NCBI GenBank assembly: GCA_024742835.1
Contig: JANSXS010000012.1
Coordinates: forward strand, 1 to 64,000
DNA from: Paracoccaceae bacterium
Lineage (GTDB): Bacteria > Pseudomonadota > Alphaproteobacteria > Rhodobacterales > Rhodobacteraceae
Length of the DNA stretch: 64,000 nucleotides
Reading direction: 5' to 3'
In this document: one piece after another, positions 34,459 to 41,557 of the stretch
Layout of the letters: each line of letters begins with the position of its first letter
Numbering within the stretch: the stretch's first letter is position 1
Position numbers and translations under genes: made by a program
The notes under the pieces: model-generated
Database searches by the model: none
Seen by the model: only the letters and a program-made list of their open reading frames with translations
Told to the model about the DNA's origin: nothing

Positions 34459-34506
34459 TTCCTGCCTGCCTATACTCGGTTGAGACGCGGAAAATGGTGG
34501 ACGCAT

Positions 34507-34998
34507 ATGGCCAAGACGGAAAACGGCGAAACGCCAAGCCCGGCAAAGAAATCCAGATTGCCTTTCGTGATCGGGCTGATACTGGCCATCGCTGGCGGCG
34601 GTGGCGGTTTCTACGCGGTGTATACGGGTCTGATTCTGGGGGAACCGGCCGACTTTGAAGTGGAGTCGAAAGAGGATGCTCCACAGGTCAAGGCCATGCC
34701 CGATGTGCGCTTCGTACCGGTCGAACCGCTCGTGATCAATGTCGACGAGGCCACGGGTACGCATCTGCGCTTTCGCGCACAGCTAGAGGTGCGCACGCCC
34801 TATCAGGCAGAGGTCGAAAACCTTCTGCCGCGCGTGGTGGACGTGCTCAATTCTTATTTGCGGGCGGTGGATGTTGCCGATCTTCGTGACAATACCGCCC
34901 TGGTCCGGCTGCGCGCACAGATGCTGCGCCGTATCCAGATCGTGACCGGAAGAGACCGGGTAAACGATTTGCTGATCATGGAATTCGTACTGAACTGA
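34507..34998 (+). CDS. fliL: Flagellar basal body protein FliL
   Basis: A 163-residue single-pass protein near the stator. A short cytoplasmic part precedes the helix LPFVIGLILAIAGGGGGFYA (about residues 19-38). The periplasmic domain has VRFVPVEPLVINVD and ends LRRIQIVTGRDRVNDLLIMEFVLN. The start at 34507 follows GGTGGACGCAT; an earlier in-frame ATG at 34480 lacks one. A second FliL-type gene lies at 43856-44356. Confidence 0.9.
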   Translation: MAKTENGETPSPAKKSRLPFVIGLILAIAGGGGGFYAVYTGLILGEPADFEVESKEDAPQVKAMPDVRFVPVEPLVINVDEATGTHLRFRAQLEVRTPYQAEVENLLPRVVDVLNSYLRAVDVADLRDNTALVRLRAQMLRRIQIVTGRDRVNDLLIMEFVLN

Positions 34999-35008
34999 GG
35001 ACAGGAAA

Positions 35009-35383
35009 ATGGTTGAAATGATTGCTGATATCCTGCTTGTCGCCGGCGCGATCGGGGCTGGTTTCTATTGCTATGTATTGGCGCGACGGCTGAGCCGTTT
35101 CAACGATCTGGAAAACGGGGTCGGTGGGGCGGTCGCGGTGCTGTCCGCACAGGTCGATGATCTGACAAAAACGCTGGAGGCGGCACAACAGACCGCGTCT
35201 GCGTCTACCATGTCGCTTGACGGCCTGACTGACCGTGCCGAAACCGTGGCGAAACGGCTCGAATTGCTGGTCGCTTCGATGCATGACCTGCCCGAGGACA
35301 GACCAGGCCAAGCCGCACCACCGGAACAGCCCGAATCGCCACTTGGCCCGGTCTTCAAACGGCATGGCGGCGGATCGGCATGA
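35009..35383 (+). CDS. Single-pass membrane coiled-coil protein in the fliL operon
   Basis: A 124-residue protein with an N-terminal hydrophobic helix (IADILLVAGAIGAGFYCYVL), a charged helical segment predicted to form a coiled coil (about residues 40-95), and a Pro-rich tail (PGQAAPPEQPESPLGPVF). The layout recalls the flagellar-positioning protein PflI of Caulobacter, which is also bitopic with a proline-rich tail, but this is resemblance only. It starts 10 bases after fliL and overlaps the next gene by four bases, so it is part of the flagellar operon. Confidence 0.7.
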   Translation: MVEMIADILLVAGAIGAGFYCYVLARRLSRFNDLENGVGGAVAVLSAQVDDLTKTLEAAQQTASASTMSLDGLTDRAETVAKRLELLVASMHDLPEDRPGQAAPPEQPESPLGPVFKRHGGGSA

Positions 35384-35967
35384 TGGCGAAAAAACCGGGC
35401 AAGCGTGGTCGGACACGCGGGAGTCTCATGATCATCGCGGGGCTATTGCTCGCCTCGGCGGCTTTGCGGATCGGCGTAGGCGCGGGCCAGGCCATTGCGC
35501 AAGATCCCGAACAGATCGAGGTCGGCACGCAAAATGCGTCGGCGACCTGCCCTTCCACCGAGGATTTCGAGGCAATGCTGGCCGCCTTCAAATCCCGTGA
35601 GGCGCAGATCGACGCACGGGAAAAGGCAATCGAGGATCGTATGAACGCCTTGCGGATTGCAGATGCCGAAGTAGCTCGGAAACTCGACGAACTTGCGGCA
35701 GCAGAGGCTCAGTTAAGCGATACGCTGGCCTTGGCCGACACTGCGGCAGAGGGTGATCTTGGCAAGTTGACCAAGGTTTACGAGACCATGAAACCGAAAC
35801 AGGCCGCGGCCCTGTTCGAGCAAATGGATCCGAATTTCGCGGCTGGTTTCCTGGGCCGGATGCGCCCCGAGGCCGCCGCAGCGATCATGGCCGGGCTGAG
35901 CCCCGAAGCGGCGCATCTTTATAGCGTGGTTCTTGCCGGACGTAATGCAAACGTGCCCAAGGAATGA
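35380..35967 (+). CDS. motE: MotE-family flagellar protein
   Basis: A 195-residue protein with an N-terminal hydrophobic segment (LMIIAGLLLASAALRIGVGA), a coiled-coil middle (FKSREAQIDAREKAIEDRM), and a C-terminal MgtE-N-like module (KVYETMKPKQAAALFEQMD, FLGRMRPEAAAAIMAGLSPE). In rhizobia MotE is a periplasmic chaperone for MotC. Here it is translated in overlap with the small coiled-coil gene and lies 73 bases upstream of motA. No motC gene is clear, so its client may be the split protein downstream of motA. Confidence 0.82.
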   Translation: MMAKKPGKRGRTRGSLMIIAGLLLASAALRIGVGAGQAIAQDPEQIEVGTQNASATCPSTEDFEAMLAAFKSREAQIDAREKAIEDRMNALRIADAEVARKLDELAAAEAQLSDTLALADTAAEGDLGKLTKVYETMKPKQAAALFEQMDPNFAAGFLGRMRPEAAAAIMAGLSPEAAHLYSVVLAGRNANVPKE

Positions 35968-36040
35968 ATTTTCCCAGAGCAGCGAATTCTTAACCGGTAC
36001 CGGTCAAACTGATTGCAACAGAAACCCGGCGGAGAACGGC

Positions 36041-36910
36041 ATGATCGGTATAATCGGCATTATTATGATCTTTGTGATGGTGTTCGGCGGGTATCTTGCC
36101 GCCGGCGGCAAGCTGGGCATCATCCTCAAGGCGCTGCCATTCGAGATGATGATGATCGGCGGCGCGGCGATCGGGGCATTCCTGATCAGCAATGATATGG
36201 CTGCTGTCAAACACACGCTCAAGGATATGGGCAAGGTATTCAAAGGACCGAAGTGGAAGCCGGAGGATTATCGCGATCTTTTATGCCTCTTGTTCGAACT
36301 GATCCGCCTTGCGCGTACAAACCCGGTCGGCATCGAGGAACATATCGAGGCGCCGGGCGATTCCGCCATTTTTGGCCGCTACCCAAGGATACAGGCCGAC
36401 AAGGAGGCAGTGGCCCTGATCTGTGATACGATGCGCTCTGCATCGATGAATTACGATGACCCACATCAGGTCGAGGAAATTCTCGACAAACGCATGGATA
36501 CGACGATGCATCATGCCATGCATTCCAGCCACGCGCTTCAGACCATGGCCGACGGCTTGCCCGCTCTGGGGATCGTGGCGGCCGTGTTGGGCGTGATCAA
36601 GACCATGGCCTCGATCGACCAGCCTCCCGAAGTGCTGGGAAAAATGATCGGTGGTGCCTTGGTCGGCACATTTCTGGGCGTCTTCCTGTCCTACGGGCTG
36701 GTCGGCCCTTTTGCGGGCAAGGTCAAAGCGGTGGTTGAAGAGGACGCGCAATTTTACCAACTCATTCGTGAGGTGCTTGTCGCCAACCTGCACAACCACG
36801 CCACCAACATCTGCATCGAGGTGGGCCGACAAAATACCCCGACCCATTGCAGGCCCAGCTTTTCCGACCTCGAAGAGGCCCTGAAGGCAGTAAAGCAGGA
36901 CGCCGCATGA
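36041..36910 (+). CDS. motA: Flagellar motor stator protein MotA
   Basis: A 289-residue four-helix stator subunit. Helix 1 starts MIGIIGIIMIFVMVFGGYLA, and helix 2 is near residue 30-50. The large cytoplasmic loop includes charged residues that contact the rotor. Helices 3-4 include MADGLPALGIVAAVLGVIKT and VGTFLGVFLSYGLVGPFAGK. The start at 36041 follows GGCGGAGAACGGC. Its stop overlaps the start of the next gene as ATGA. Its partner motB is at the left end of the island. Confidence 0.95.
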   Translation: MIGIIGIIMIFVMVFGGYLAAGGKLGIILKALPFEMMMIGGAAIGAFLISNDMAAVKHTLKDMGKVFKGPKWKPEDYRDLLCLLFELIRLARTNPVGIEEHIEAPGDSAIFGRYPRIQADKEAVALICDTMRSASMNYDDPHQVEEILDKRMDTTMHHAMHSSHALQTMADGLPALGIVAAVLGVIKTMASIDQPPEVLGKMIGGALVGTFLGVFLSYGLVGPFAGKVKAVVEEDAQFYQLIREVLVANLHNHATNICIEVGRQNTPTHCRPSFSDLEEALKAVKQDAA

Positions 36911-37584
36911 TGCGATGTTTCGTTATTCTGATCATGACATGGGTGCCGGCTCTTGCGAATGCGCAACCTGTTGTGATCCGCTCGGGCGAGCATGATGGGT
37001 ACACAAGGCTGGTCTTCGATTTTCCAATGCGGGTGCCCTGGTCCGTGGAAAATACCGATCCGGGTGCGAAATTGTCCTTTCCCGAGTCTGATTTTCGTTT
37101 TGATCCAAGCGCTGTATTTTCCAGGATTTCCCGTGGCCGTCTGCAAGACCTTCAAGCTGAACCCGATGGCAGGACTATCACGCTGGATTTTGCCTGCGAT
37201 TGTGAGGTCACCGGGTTCTGGCATGCGGATGCGATGCTGGTCCTGGACATCAGGGGTGTTGAAAACAGTCGGCGCGAAACGGTTGACACCACGGAACAAT
37301 CACCCCAACCGGCAAATGATGGTGGGCGTCCTGCCCTCCCAACGAATACAACATCCACTTTGGCCGGTCTGTCTTCATCGGTCCTCGAAAGACCGGATCC
37401 TGCCGTGACACCGTCCGAAACGGCCCTGCCCGGTGCGCTAAACTCCACCAACATTTTCGAGCTGTCCCGCGCGCGCGACGAATTGCTCAAGCAGTTTGGA
37501 CGCGCAGCGTCTCAGGGCCTGCTGACCCCGCGTGTTGCTATTCCGCAAGCGGCTACCGACACCGCTATGCCCCCCCCCCGGTGA
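36907..37584 (+). CDS. Exported protein after motA, 5' part of a probable split gene
   Basis: A 225-residue product with a signal peptide (FVILIMTWVPALANA, cleavage about residue 18). The mature part is beta-rich (VVIRSGEHDGYTRLVFDFP, ITLDFACDCEVTGFW), followed by a Pro/Thr linker and the helical segment NIFELSRARDELLKQFGRAA. It is translated in overlap with motA. It ends in a run of ten C residues (37570-37579) as PPPR-stop. The next frame starts in the GTGA at 37581. I recall relatives encoding both parts as one large protein, so this may be frameshifted. Confidence 0.8.
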   Translation: MMRCFVILIMTWVPALANAQPVVIRSGEHDGYTRLVFDFPMRVPWSVENTDPGAKLSFPESDFRFDPSAVFSRISRGRLQDLQAEPDGRTITLDFACDCEVTGFWHADAMLVLDIRGVENSRRETVDTTEQSPQPANDGGRPALPTNTTSTLAGLSSSVLERPDPAVTPSETALPGALNSTNIFELSRARDELLKQFGRAASQGLLTPRVAIPQAATDTAMPPPR

Positions 37585-39119
37585 CCGGCCTGGAAGGGAA
37601 ACTTGATATCCCAATGGGCCCGCCTGCCCCTCAATCGTTACAGCTACGCGCCCGATCAAGCATGGATAGCGCCTTTATGGACGTCATGACCGAACGCATG
37701 ATGGCGATGTCACAGTCCAGAACATGCCTTGATCCTGCATTGACCGACGTCGCGACATGGGCGACCGACGCGAGTTTTTGGCAGCAAGTGAGTAAGAAAC
37801 GAACTGCCCTGACCGGGGAGTTCGATCGCATGAACAAGGAGGCCGTGATTTCGCTGGCGCAGCTTTATATCCATTTCGGATTCGGCCACGAGGCGAGGCA
37901 GGTCTTGAATGCGGCCTCCTCGGATAGCCTTCAGCATCGTGTCTTGATCGCCATGTCCGATATCATGGATCACGAAACGGCCGGCCATGCATCGCCTCTG
38001 CACGGACAATTCGATTGTGATGGGCGCACGGCGCTTTGGGCGATCCTCGCTCAGGCGAACCCGCCGTTCGATGCAAGATTCGATCCAGACGAGATCGTCA
38101 CGGCCTTTGCCGCGCTGCCCCGGCATTTGCGGGCTCATTTGGGGCCTATACTCTCAAAACGGCTTCTGGATGCCGGATTTACAGGCGCAAGCGAAAAGAT
38201 CCTACGGATTCTCAACCGGACCAAAGACACTGTGACATCGCGGTCCGAACTGGTTTCCGCGGAAACCGACCGCGCGGTGGGGCAGAATGATCGCGCGGAT
38301 GAAAAGCTGCGAAAAATCTCTGAATCTAATTCCGAGAGCGCCGTGACCGCGCTGATCGAGATGATAGAAAGCCTTGTCCAGCGCGAGAAGCCTGTATCGT
38401 ACGACATGGCGCAATTGGCCGGTGCCTATGCATTCGAACAACGCAAAACGGCTGATGCCCCGGCTTTACGGCGCGCGCATGTGCTTGCTCTGGCTGCATC
38501 AGGTGCCTTTGACGAGGCCTATACTGTGCTGGAGACGTTCGCGATGGAGGAGGCTGCAACGATGCGGCCGGCGCTTGCGGATATTCTTACGCGTCAGGCA
38601 CCTGAAATGGTGTTTCTGAAACATGTACTCGCCGACCGCACAGGGCTTGTTGCCAACTTGGAACAGGCCGTGGTGATCAATATGGCCAGCCGCCTTTTCG
38701 AGGCCGGATTCGTCGATGCGGCGGCGAATATCCTCGCCGGCCCTGTCCCGAATGAAGCCCGCGAGACACGGTTGTTGCGTGCGGAAATCTCACTTGCACA
38801 AGGTCTTCCACGCCGCGCCGAAGTGGACCTGTTGGGGCTGGACGGGCCAGATGTCAACATTCTGCGCGCCAGAGCCCGAAGCATGGCGGGTGAGCATGAT
38901 CAGGCCCGCGATCTTTATATGTCAGCCGGCCTCACCGAAGATGCGGACCGCGAAGCCTGGCTCGCCGAGACAGCCGATGCTACATTCAGGCCCCAGCCCG
39001 AGAGTGATCCGGGACCGGTTCTGGCGCGCAACAGAGACCTTCTTGAGGCGTCCAATGCCACAAGAGCCGAGTTGCGCGCGCTCTTGTCGGCCAATCCTGC
39101 TCCAACACTCGACAATTGA
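37581..39119 (+). CDS. Helical-repeat flagellar protein, 3' part of a probable split gene
   Basis: A 512-residue, mainly helical protein that looks TPR-like (for example ISLAQLYIHFGFGHEARQVL, ALIEMIESLVQREKPVSY, RRAEVDLLGLDG). If real as annotated, it starts at GTG overlapping the previous stop (GTGA). No signal peptide is present, which is odd for a partner of an exported protein and supports the idea that it is the C-terminal portion of one secreted protein. Adding one C to the ten-C run would join both frames (about 737 residues). A periplasmic motility role like that of rhizobial MotC is speculative. Confidence 0.8.
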   Translation: MTGLEGKLDIPMGPPAPQSLQLRARSSMDSAFMDVMTERMMAMSQSRTCLDPALTDVATWATDASFWQQVSKKRTALTGEFDRMNKEAVISLAQLYIHFGFGHEARQVLNAASSDSLQHRVLIAMSDIMDHETAGHASPLHGQFDCDGRTALWAILAQANPPFDARFDPDEIVTAFAALPRHLRAHLGPILSKRLLDAGFTGASEKILRILNRTKDTVTSRSELVSAETDRAVGQNDRADEKLRKISESNSESAVTALIEMIESLVQREKPVSYDMAQLAGAYAFEQRKTADAPALRRAHVLALAASGAFDEAYTVLETFAMEEAATMRPALADILTRQAPEMVFLKHVLADRTGLVANLEQAVVINMASRLFEAGFVDAAANILAGPVPNEARETRLLRAEISLAQGLPRRAEVDLLGLDGPDVNILRARARSMAGEHDQARDLYMSAGLTEDADREAWLAETADATFRPQPESDPGPVLARNRDLLEASNATRAELRALLSANPAPTLDN

Positions 39120-39133
39120 GGCGGTCCTTTCGC

Positions 39134-39469
39134 ATGTTCACGAACTGTAAAGAGAGCGCGCGTAGCATGAACTGGACACTGCTGGACATCCCGGTCAACA
39201 CGGAGACTTTCCTCGCCATGACAGTAAAAAACCTGCCCATTCGGGATCATGGACATATCACCGGTCTTCTCCAGGGTGCTAATGTCGAAGCCGCTGCTAC
39301 CGACAGACGAAAAACCCGAATGACCAGTGATCTGGCCCCTATGCGTTCAACAGTTGAAAAAGGGTGGCAATCGACCGGGGCCTCTCTGATCACGATCGAG
39401 GATCTGCGATTTCGGTCTGTACGGGGCATTGACCTTGCGCATCCCCTGCGCGGCAACGGCGGCGGCTGA
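39134..39469 (+). CDS. Hypothetical protein between the split gene and flhA
   Basis: A 111-residue frame beginning MFTNCKESARSMNW, soluble, without a recognisable domain. It contains NLPIRDHGHITGLL and SLITIEDLRFRSVRGIDLAHPL. It fits neatly between the previous stop and the flhA GTG start, 3 bases apart, which is why I keep it. A weak GAGGCGG lies 12 bases upstream of the ATG. An ATG at 39167 is another possible start. It could be non-coding. Confidence 0.45.
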   Translation: MFTNCKESARSMNWTLLDIPVNTETFLAMTVKNLPIRDHGHITGLLQGANVEAAATDRRKTRMTSDLAPMRSTVEKGWQSTGASLITIEDLRFRSVRGIDLAHPLRGNGGG

Positions 39470-39472
39470 CAC

Positions 39473-41557
39473 GTGCCGTCCTTTGCCCTGAAAAACCTCT
39501 TTCAGCCGACTGTTCTTCTCGCCGTGGCCCTTATGACGATCATCGTCATGATGATCCTGCCGATGCCGGCCTGGATGCTCGACCTCGGGCTTGCTACCTC
39601 TTTTGCGCTGGCCATCCTGATATTTACCATCACCCTTTTCATCGAGCGGCCTCTCGATTTTTCTTCGTTTCCAACGATTTTGCTGGCGGCTCTGGTGCTG
39701 CGTCTGTCACTCAATGTCTCGTCCACGAAACTCATCATCGGGCAAGGACATACCGGCACCGCTGCCGCCGGTGACGTGATCCAGGGCTTTGCCAATTTCA
39801 TCATGGGTGGCAGCGTGTTTCTTGGCCTCGTCGTTTTCGGCGTGCTGCTCATCGTCAATTTCATGGTGATCACCAAAGGGGCTGCGCGCATGGCCGAGGT
39901 TGGTGCGCGTTTTGCACTGGACGGGATGCCGGGCAAACAGCTTGCCATCGACAGTGACATGTCGGCGGGTGCGATCAACCATCAGGAAGCGCGCGAAAGA
40001 CGCGAGCGTGAACAACAGGAAACCACCTTTTTCGGCTCTCTCGATGGCGCTTCGAAATTCGTGAAGGGCGATGCCGTAGCCGGATTGCTGATAACATTGT
40101 TGAACCTTGTCATGGGGTTGACGATGGGCACGGTCGTGCATGACATGCCTTTCGGACAGGCCTTTGAAACTTATGCCATTCTGACGGTTGGCGACGGGCT
40201 TGTGACCCAGATACCGGCGGTCATCATCTCGATCGCGTCGGCTTTGCTTTTGGCACGGGGAGGTGCCCAGGGTGCGACCGATATCGCGTTGGGCGCGCAG
40301 ATCGGCCGCCATCCCAAAGCGATGGCCACGGTTGCGATACTCATGGCCCTTTTCGCCTTCGTGCCGGGCTTGCCATTTGTGCCCTTCATGATCGGTAGCG
40401 GCATTCTGGGCGCGACATCCATTTGGCTGTTTCGCCAAAAGAGTCGGGAAACCAACGAAACCACAGCCCCCGACCAAGAGGTCATGGTGCCTCGCACGTC
40501 GCTTGGCGATGTGCTGGATCTTGACGATATCCACGTCGAATTTGCGCCCTCGCTGGTCAATATGGTGCTAGATCCGGGCACCGGTCTTGATGTCCGGATC
40601 GACAATATGCGCCGGTTTATCGCCAGTAGTTTCGGATTGATCCTGCCGGAAATAAGACTGACCGACGAGCCAACCCTGCAACAAGACTGTTACGTCATCC
40701 GAATTCAGGGCGTTGAACAGGCGCGCGCGACGCTCAGACTGGACCATGTTCTGGCGCTTGATCCCGAAAATCAGGCCCATTTGCCCGTCGGAGAGAATGT
40801 TCATGAGCCTGTCTATGGCGCGCCGGCGCGCTGGATTCGCGATAGCGAACAAGACGATGCCGCTTTGGGAGGAACCACGCTCGTCGCGCCAGTGGAAATA
40901 CTCGCGACCCATCTTCTCGAGGTGATAAAGCGCAATCTTGGCCGTTTGCTTACCATGAAATCAATGCGCAAACTGATGGATGAGATGGTCAATCTAAGTG
41001 ATCCAGGGCGGTCCGAGGCCAACCGCAAATTGCTCGACGAGATGATCCCGGACCGGGTACCGACAGATCTGTTGTTGCAGATCCTGCGACTTTTGTTGTC
41101 CGAACAGGTTTCGATCCGCAACATGCCGCTTATCCTTGAGGCAGTCGGTGAAGCGCGGCAAATCCATTCCCATCCCGAAAGCATCTGCGAACTGGTCCGG
41201 CAACGTCTTGGCTTTCAGCTTGTCGCGAGCCACCAGCGGGCCGACGGCACGTTACCGCTGATCCAGCTGGCACCGGAATGGGAGGATACATTCTCGACCT
41301 ATCAAGTGGAGGGCAACAAGGGGCGTTTCGATGTCGCCTTGCCGCCTGATCTTTTCAACGCCCTGACCGACGGGGTCGCAGATGAAGTGTCGCGCGCTGG
41401 TGATATGGGCGTCTATCCCGCCATTGTGACCTCGACTCCCCGCAGGCGGTTCCTGCGCACGGTTCTGTCGGCCAAAAACATCGCCAACCCGGTGCTTTCA
41501 TTTGAGGAAATCGGCGTCGACGCGCGCCCGTCTCTGGTGGGTGTGGTGCGGGCATGA
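39473..41557 (+). CDS. flhA: Flagellar export gate protein FlhA (GTG start)
   Basis: A 694-residue export protein. Residues 1-320 hold about eight membrane helices and the FHIPEP region with VLRLSLNVSSTKLIIGQGH and GDGLVTQIPAVIISIASALL. The cytoplasmic C-terminal domain (about 350-694) carries VNMVLDPGTGLDVRIDN and LLQILRLLLSEQVSIRNMPL, the nonamer-ring region. The GTG start is supported by coverage of the conserved N-terminus. It overlaps fliR by four bases. Confidence 0.97.
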   Translation: MPSFALKNLFQPTVLLAVALMTIIVMMILPMPAWMLDLGLATSFALAILIFTITLFIERPLDFSSFPTILLAALVLRLSLNVSSTKLIIGQGHTGTAAAGDVIQGFANFIMGGSVFLGLVVFGVLLIVNFMVITKGAARMAEVGARFALDGMPGKQLAIDSDMSAGAINHQEARERREREQQETTFFGSLDGASKFVKGDAVAGLLITLLNLVMGLTMGTVVHDMPFGQAFETYAILTVGDGLVTQIPAVIISIASALLLARGGAQGATDIALGAQIGRHPKAMATVAILMALFAFVPGLPFVPFMIGSGILGATSIWLFRQKSRETNETTAPDQEVMVPRTSLGDVLDLDDIHVEFAPSLVNMVLDPGTGLDVRIDNMRRFIASSFGLILPEIRLTDEPTLQQDCYVIRIQGVEQARATLRLDHVLALDPENQAHLPVGENVHEPVYGAPARWIRDSEQDDAALGGTTLVAPVEILATHLLEVIKRNLGRLLTMKSMRKLMDEMVNLSDPGRSEANRKLLDEMIPDRVPTDLLLQILRLLLSEQVSIRNMPLILEAVGEARQIHSHPESICELVRQRLGFQLVASHQRADGTLPLIQLAPEWEDTFSTYQVEGNKGRFDVALPPDLFNALTDGVADEVSRAGDMGVYPAIVTSTPRRRFLRTVLSAKNIANPVLSFEEIGVDARPSLVGVVRA

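Follow-up and report, generated by a model that had tools for sequence, protein, structure and literature searches.

As written, a flagellar operon in a Rhodobacteraceae genome carries a broken motK allele instead of a gene for intact MotK: its coding sequence is divided at a run of ten C (C10) into two open reading frames. The window analysed is a stretch of 64,000 nt from contig JANSXS010000012.1 of the Paracoccaceae bacterium assembly GCA_024742835.1. Judged from the homologues of both parts, the two frames, which a first-pass annotation had described as two coupled flagellar ORFs, represent a single gene, named motK here, and that description is corrected accordingly. Very probably, this one gene is broken by the length of the tract and not by a programmed device. 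The genes and gene parts concerned are the following.

34480..34998, + strand: fliL, by an NCBIfam FliL match (E 3e-20, below the curated cut-off)
35009..35383, + strand: pflI-like small gene, named by position only, the gene order being as described in PMC10954123
35380..35967, + strand: motE homologue, by its position before motA and weak matches
35933..36910, + strand: motA, stator protein (TIGR03818 MotA1, 363.8 bits, over the cut-off)
36907..37584, + strand: motK 5′ part, by homology to the N-terminal part of the relatives' single protein
37570..37579, + strand: C10 tract at the frame change, within a disordered proline-rich linker as predicted from a homologue model
37581..39119, + strand: motK 3′ part, by homology to relatives; remaining linker and TPR-like alpha-solenoid
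39473..41557, + strand: flhA, intact, the downstream flagellar gene (TIGR01398, 800.9 bits, over the cut-off)

In Cereibacter sphaeroides, the MotK operon is described as having the order fliL-pflI-motE-motA-motK (PMC10954123). The same order is found here, with motK as the gene after motA, pflI being placed by position only and motE by position and weak matches. The pflI-like gene has no NCBIfam match at E 1e-5, and the motE homologue matches MgtE_N over the cut-off (3.1e-06) and FlbB-collar weakly, below the cut-off (0.0013). The start given for motA is that of the longest ORF, and the real start may be further downstream. Between motK and flhA, there is an ORF of 117 aa at 39116-39469 with no family match over the cut-off; among relatives, the gap between these two genes varies widely, from almost none to about 1000 bases.

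MotK of the C. sphaeroides Fla2 system (RSWS8N_12065) is described as a periplasmic protein of 652 aa encoded in one frame; its N-terminal domain is AMIN-like, its middle is disordered with stretches rich in proline, and its C-terminal domain consists of TPR-like helices. It binds MotE and MotB, and the Fla2 flagella need it to rotate; when motK is disrupted in the laboratory strain, the cells still have flagella but do not swim (PMC10954123). The gene in the window is like it in operon order, in the AMIN-like/disordered proline-rich/TPR-like architecture and in the signal sequence (here by inspection), but, unlike the one-frame gene, is broken at C10 into two frames; the two MotKs are likened by description, not by sequence. 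The 5′ part comprises the likely signal sequence, the AMIN-like domain and the first half of the linker. Its N-terminus, MMRCFVILIMTWVPALANAQ, is signal-sequence-like by inspection only, and Pfam AMIN-like matches this part at 0.002, below the cut-off, while the 3′ part is, also by inspection, without a signal sequence. In Pfam, neither part matches any family over the cut-off, the TPR matches being below it, and no second motK copy is found in the genome.

The C run lies at 37570-37579, exactly where the first-pass annotation had placed it, and the remark made there that it is the longest homopolymer noticed holds for the whole window, in which the next is a G8. The first frame starts with an ATG at 36907 that overlaps the motA stop and ends with a TGA at 37582-37584 (225 aa, C-terminus AMPPPR), and the second runs from a GTG at 37581 to 39119 (512 aa). 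The frame of 512 codons is thus −1 relative to that of 225 codons, as had been worked out before. A codon-usage score, which is noisy, favours the first frame in scoring windows starting at 37396-37516 and disfavours it from 37540; for the second frame, the same noisy score is clearly positive first at 37566 and dips at 37614-37638. These frame-specific scores indicate that the coding frame switches at or near the C10 tract.

The position of the tract in the protein can be read from a structure model of L097, the closest intact homologue (mean pLDDT 85.1, pTM 0.62). The beta domain at residues 19-119 of the model matches the AMIN domain of AmiC (4bin) with Z 12.9 and rmsd 2.3 over 100 aligned residues, and the model is helical from about residue 253, matching TPR chains up to Z 16.9 (rmsd 6.0, 263 aligned). 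The first and second parts from the window align to residues 2-220 and 244-753 of L097, respectively; by way of the model and these alignments, the first part has an AMIN-like N-terminal domain and the second a TPR-like C-terminal domain. Since the gap between the aligned parts falls within residues 205-250, which are modelled at pLDDT <50, the C10 tract is, on this model, predicted to sit in a disordered linker between the AMIN-like and TPR-like domains. The best Foldseek match of L097 is 9hmf chain K, a periplasmic scaffold of C. jejuni (E 6.3e-06, TM 0.17, 11% identity), which is probably PflA; this chain is absent among the best 50 VIA structural matches, most of which are TPR and other repeat solenoids. 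MotK and PflA, the periplasmic motor scaffold of Campylobacter jejuni, are called structurally similar (PMC13023049), a resemblance that agrees with the Foldseek match of L097, but the TM of this match is only 0.17.

In relatives, the two parts are encoded together. A homologue of the motK 3′ part is found in 54 of the 83 other genomes of the same genus, three copies being cut by contig ends (G032, G097 and G102), and every one of the 51 complete homologues is a single frame of 728-788 aa (median, 757), compared with 225 + 512 aa here; the start codons of the 51 were chosen by a script, at the end of the motA stop or three bases before it. In 29 of the 84 same-genus genomes, which are perhaps non-motile, incomplete or too diverged, the second part of MotK has no match. 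A scan of genome contigs with the window protein as a query gave no match; a profile search found 103 relatives, and the N- and C-terminal parts share one open frame at 79 of the 80 named loci kept, which are mostly from Roseovarius and other roseobacters, the remaining one being cut by a contig end. The same-genus and named-locus sets overlap; with the cut copies as well as L121 and L154 omitted, 129 genes were kept, 109 of them distinct.

Furthermore, a family-wide search gave a match in 260 of 394 genomes, and an open frame of at least 700 aa, taken as a proxy for an unbroken gene, is present at 148 of 150 places among the matches listed, the exceptions being the source genome (599) and G147 (585). 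G147 was rejected as a second broken homologue, as its frame runs to the contig end. Internal stops in 11 of the 150 matches listed were likewise dismissed: apart from G147, they are ten ordinary gene ends, in which the match finishes with the stop or at most two codons from it. The earlier suggestion that the two frames make one exported protein is supported by the intact homologues examined, all of which encode one protein. In the alignment with homologues proposed at that time as a check, relatives with two separate proteins, the outcome that would have spoken against the suggestion, are not seen among those examined.

These comparisons make it extremely unlikely that the two frames are a true gene fission into two coupled proteins with separate functions. 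The stop/start overlap, GTGA, resembles translational coupling, and with an identity to relatives of no more than about 46% over the second part, the alignment is compatible with a recent functional split specific to this lineage. However, a separate second protein would, by inspection, lack any signal sequence, although the matching region in homologues is the C-terminal domain of a secreted protein; a purine-rich ribosome-binding site is absent, by inspection, just before the GTG, which comes directly after the C run; and fission is seen in none of the relatives examined.

The C run might also allow full-length protein to be made from the broken allele, either by transcriptional slippage or by a programmed −1 shift of the ribosome. 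A C CCC CCC heptamer within the run is phased as −1 slippage would require (by inspection). Nevertheless, none of the 51 same-genus relatives needs recoding or has a frame change conserved at this place, and pseudoknot-free folding of 37560-37660, which takes in the tract and the bases after it, shows no stable RNA structure that could be stimulatory (z 0.62, with 145 of 200 shuffles folding as well or better). With neither an RNA structure nor conservation, programmed frameshifting was rejected, and recoding of either kind is very unlikely. Of the four causes that the first-pass annotation had listed, programmed frameshifting and true gene splitting are disfavoured because they are seen in no relative examined; sequencing error stands, and so does slippage of an unselected kind.

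In the 109 distinct genes, the proline content is 10.9% in linkers versus 4.6% elsewhere, with the linker limits set by an approximate rule, and C runs of at least 7 occur 10 times in 53,307 nt of linker versus twice in 198,570 nt elsewhere. Linkers with C7-C9 runs and an unbroken frame are present in 10 of the 109 distinct relatives, and all seven of the ten linker runs that were checked codon by codon, including the C9 in L035, contain in-frame proline codons. The 10 linker runs of at least C7 observed in the 109 genes compare with 12.9 expected from synonymous shuffles and 12.2 from codon-order shuffles. Composition therefore suffices to account for the linker runs and there is no sign of selection for tracts; a selected tract in linkers was rejected, C runs being no commoner than composition predicts.

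This result bears on reversible phase variation, in which slippage in the tract would turn MotK, and hence flagellar rotation, on and off. A slippage-prone repeat, C10, is located right at the frame change, the surrounding flagellar genes that were checked look intact, and the gene with the long C tract is one on which rotation is described as depending in a relative (PMC10954123). Precedents of tract-length switching are fliP of Helicobacter pylori and flhA of Campylobacter coli (PMC3930126). As in these two cases, a flagellar gene is frameshifted at a homopolymer, but switching is shown for them, as described in that source, while motK here is one sequence (PMC3930126). Phase variation is also opposed by the relatives examined, among which neither an equally long C tract nor an off state is found (the longest run is C9), by the presence of MutS and MutL, and by the 109 distinct genes, in which the tract is not kept beyond composition, the linker runs falling short of the 12.9 expected; since the linker runs match composition, an evolved phase-variation device is unsupported by relatives. 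Among the papers listed on homopolymer or frameshift phase variation, MotK was not found, which does not prove its absence from the literature, and the papers found on phase variation in Rhodobacter or roseobacter motility gave nothing on point, as judged by title. Reversible phase variation is thus an unlikely explanation, and it is improbable that motK serves this Roseovarius-like bacterium from the sea as a contingency switch driven by its C tract. If such a switch were true, the toggled periplasmic protein would be one thought to recruit or activate the stator, and populations would be mixtures of swimming cells and paralysed but still flagellated ones.

As a bare run, C10 is not beyond chance expectation. 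Under a first-order Markov model, 0.086 C runs and 0.114 G runs of at least 10 are expected per window, which scales, by arithmetic, to about 9-10 C/G runs of this length in the genome. The genome has 16 C/G tracts of at least 8 bases, and the three of at least 10 (13, 11 and 10 bases) are fewer than this simple Markov estimate. At least one C/G tract of 10 or more is found in 68 of the 84 same-genus genomes, the source genome counted. The G13 tract (L083:2110-2122, G000:C4) and the G11 tract (L096:3065-3075, G000:C75) are seemingly intergenic by the ORF table, each being also within a longer unproven ORF. If they are intergenic, then on that reading C10 is the only C/G tract of at least 9 within a gene. 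The gene adjoining G11 is presumably trkH, which it resembles by eye, and the G13 and G11 tracts are possible slippage sites near promoters. A G8 lies in the open frame of a FliK-like hook-length gene (Flg_hook; L090:3055-3062, G000:C43), which is thus a second flagellar gene of the genome with a long G/C run.

Ten-base homopolymers are error-prone in sequencing, and a consensus or assembly error, in which the tract in the cells differs in length and motK is intact, is a possibility to be taken seriously. The genome is a draft in 76 contigs. Where the window is conserved in three relatives, no other real gene is seen to be broken: the frame break in motK is the only one against them judged to lie within a real gene of the window, in a comparison blind to breaks with a second piece of ≤35 bits or E >1e-8, and 9 of the 12 frame-change lines were set aside as shadow ORFs over better-matching genes, by inspection. 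The GeneTack survey expects sequencing errors to lie behind lone unclustered frameshifts that have a protein match, and a lone break within its family accordingly leans to a miscount (PMC3711429). The motK break is like the singleton frameshift genes of that survey in having one broken member with the other copies examined intact, but differs from them in its place, a long homopolymer within a linker predicted to be disordered (PMC3711429).

On the other hand, 8-base C/G tracts elsewhere in the genome are located in intact genes. Thirteen such tracts exist and ten were examined, five of which are inside a domain or between the two domains of one frame, in genes for a valyl-tRNA synthetase, a FixG-like protein, a heparinase-like protein, an HTH/ScfR-type regulator and a response regulator-GGDEF protein. 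These indicate that miscounting is not general in this genome, and general homopolymer miscounting was rejected; in-gene tracts of at least 10 cannot be calibrated because the C10 of motK is the only one.

Long homopolymers are prone to slippage. As the cause of the break, replication slippage without selection, whether in the lineage sequenced or in its culture, comes close to an even call and is slightly likelier than a miscount. Motility genes are known targets of slippage, as described in PMC3930126 and PMC2831843. Both mutS and mutL are intact, which makes real slippage less likely, if still possible, and loss of mismatch repair was rejected as a cause. Probably, proline codons in the linker built up a long C run, and its number of units may then have risen or fallen through slippage, whether in cells or during sequencing. 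From the allele as written, the N-terminal fragment would be secreted, while the C-terminal one, if made at all, would stay in the cytoplasm, and cells with this allele would, by analogy with C. sphaeroides motK mutants, have non-rotating flagella.

Most likely, the tract-length frameshift in motK is not a new device but an ordinary one, arising either from unselected slippage or from a miscounted homopolymer. A wrong tract length would be a consensus error worth correcting. With a true length of ten, paralysed flagella are to be expected in the strain, and the linker of MotK would be a plausible hotspot of slippage.
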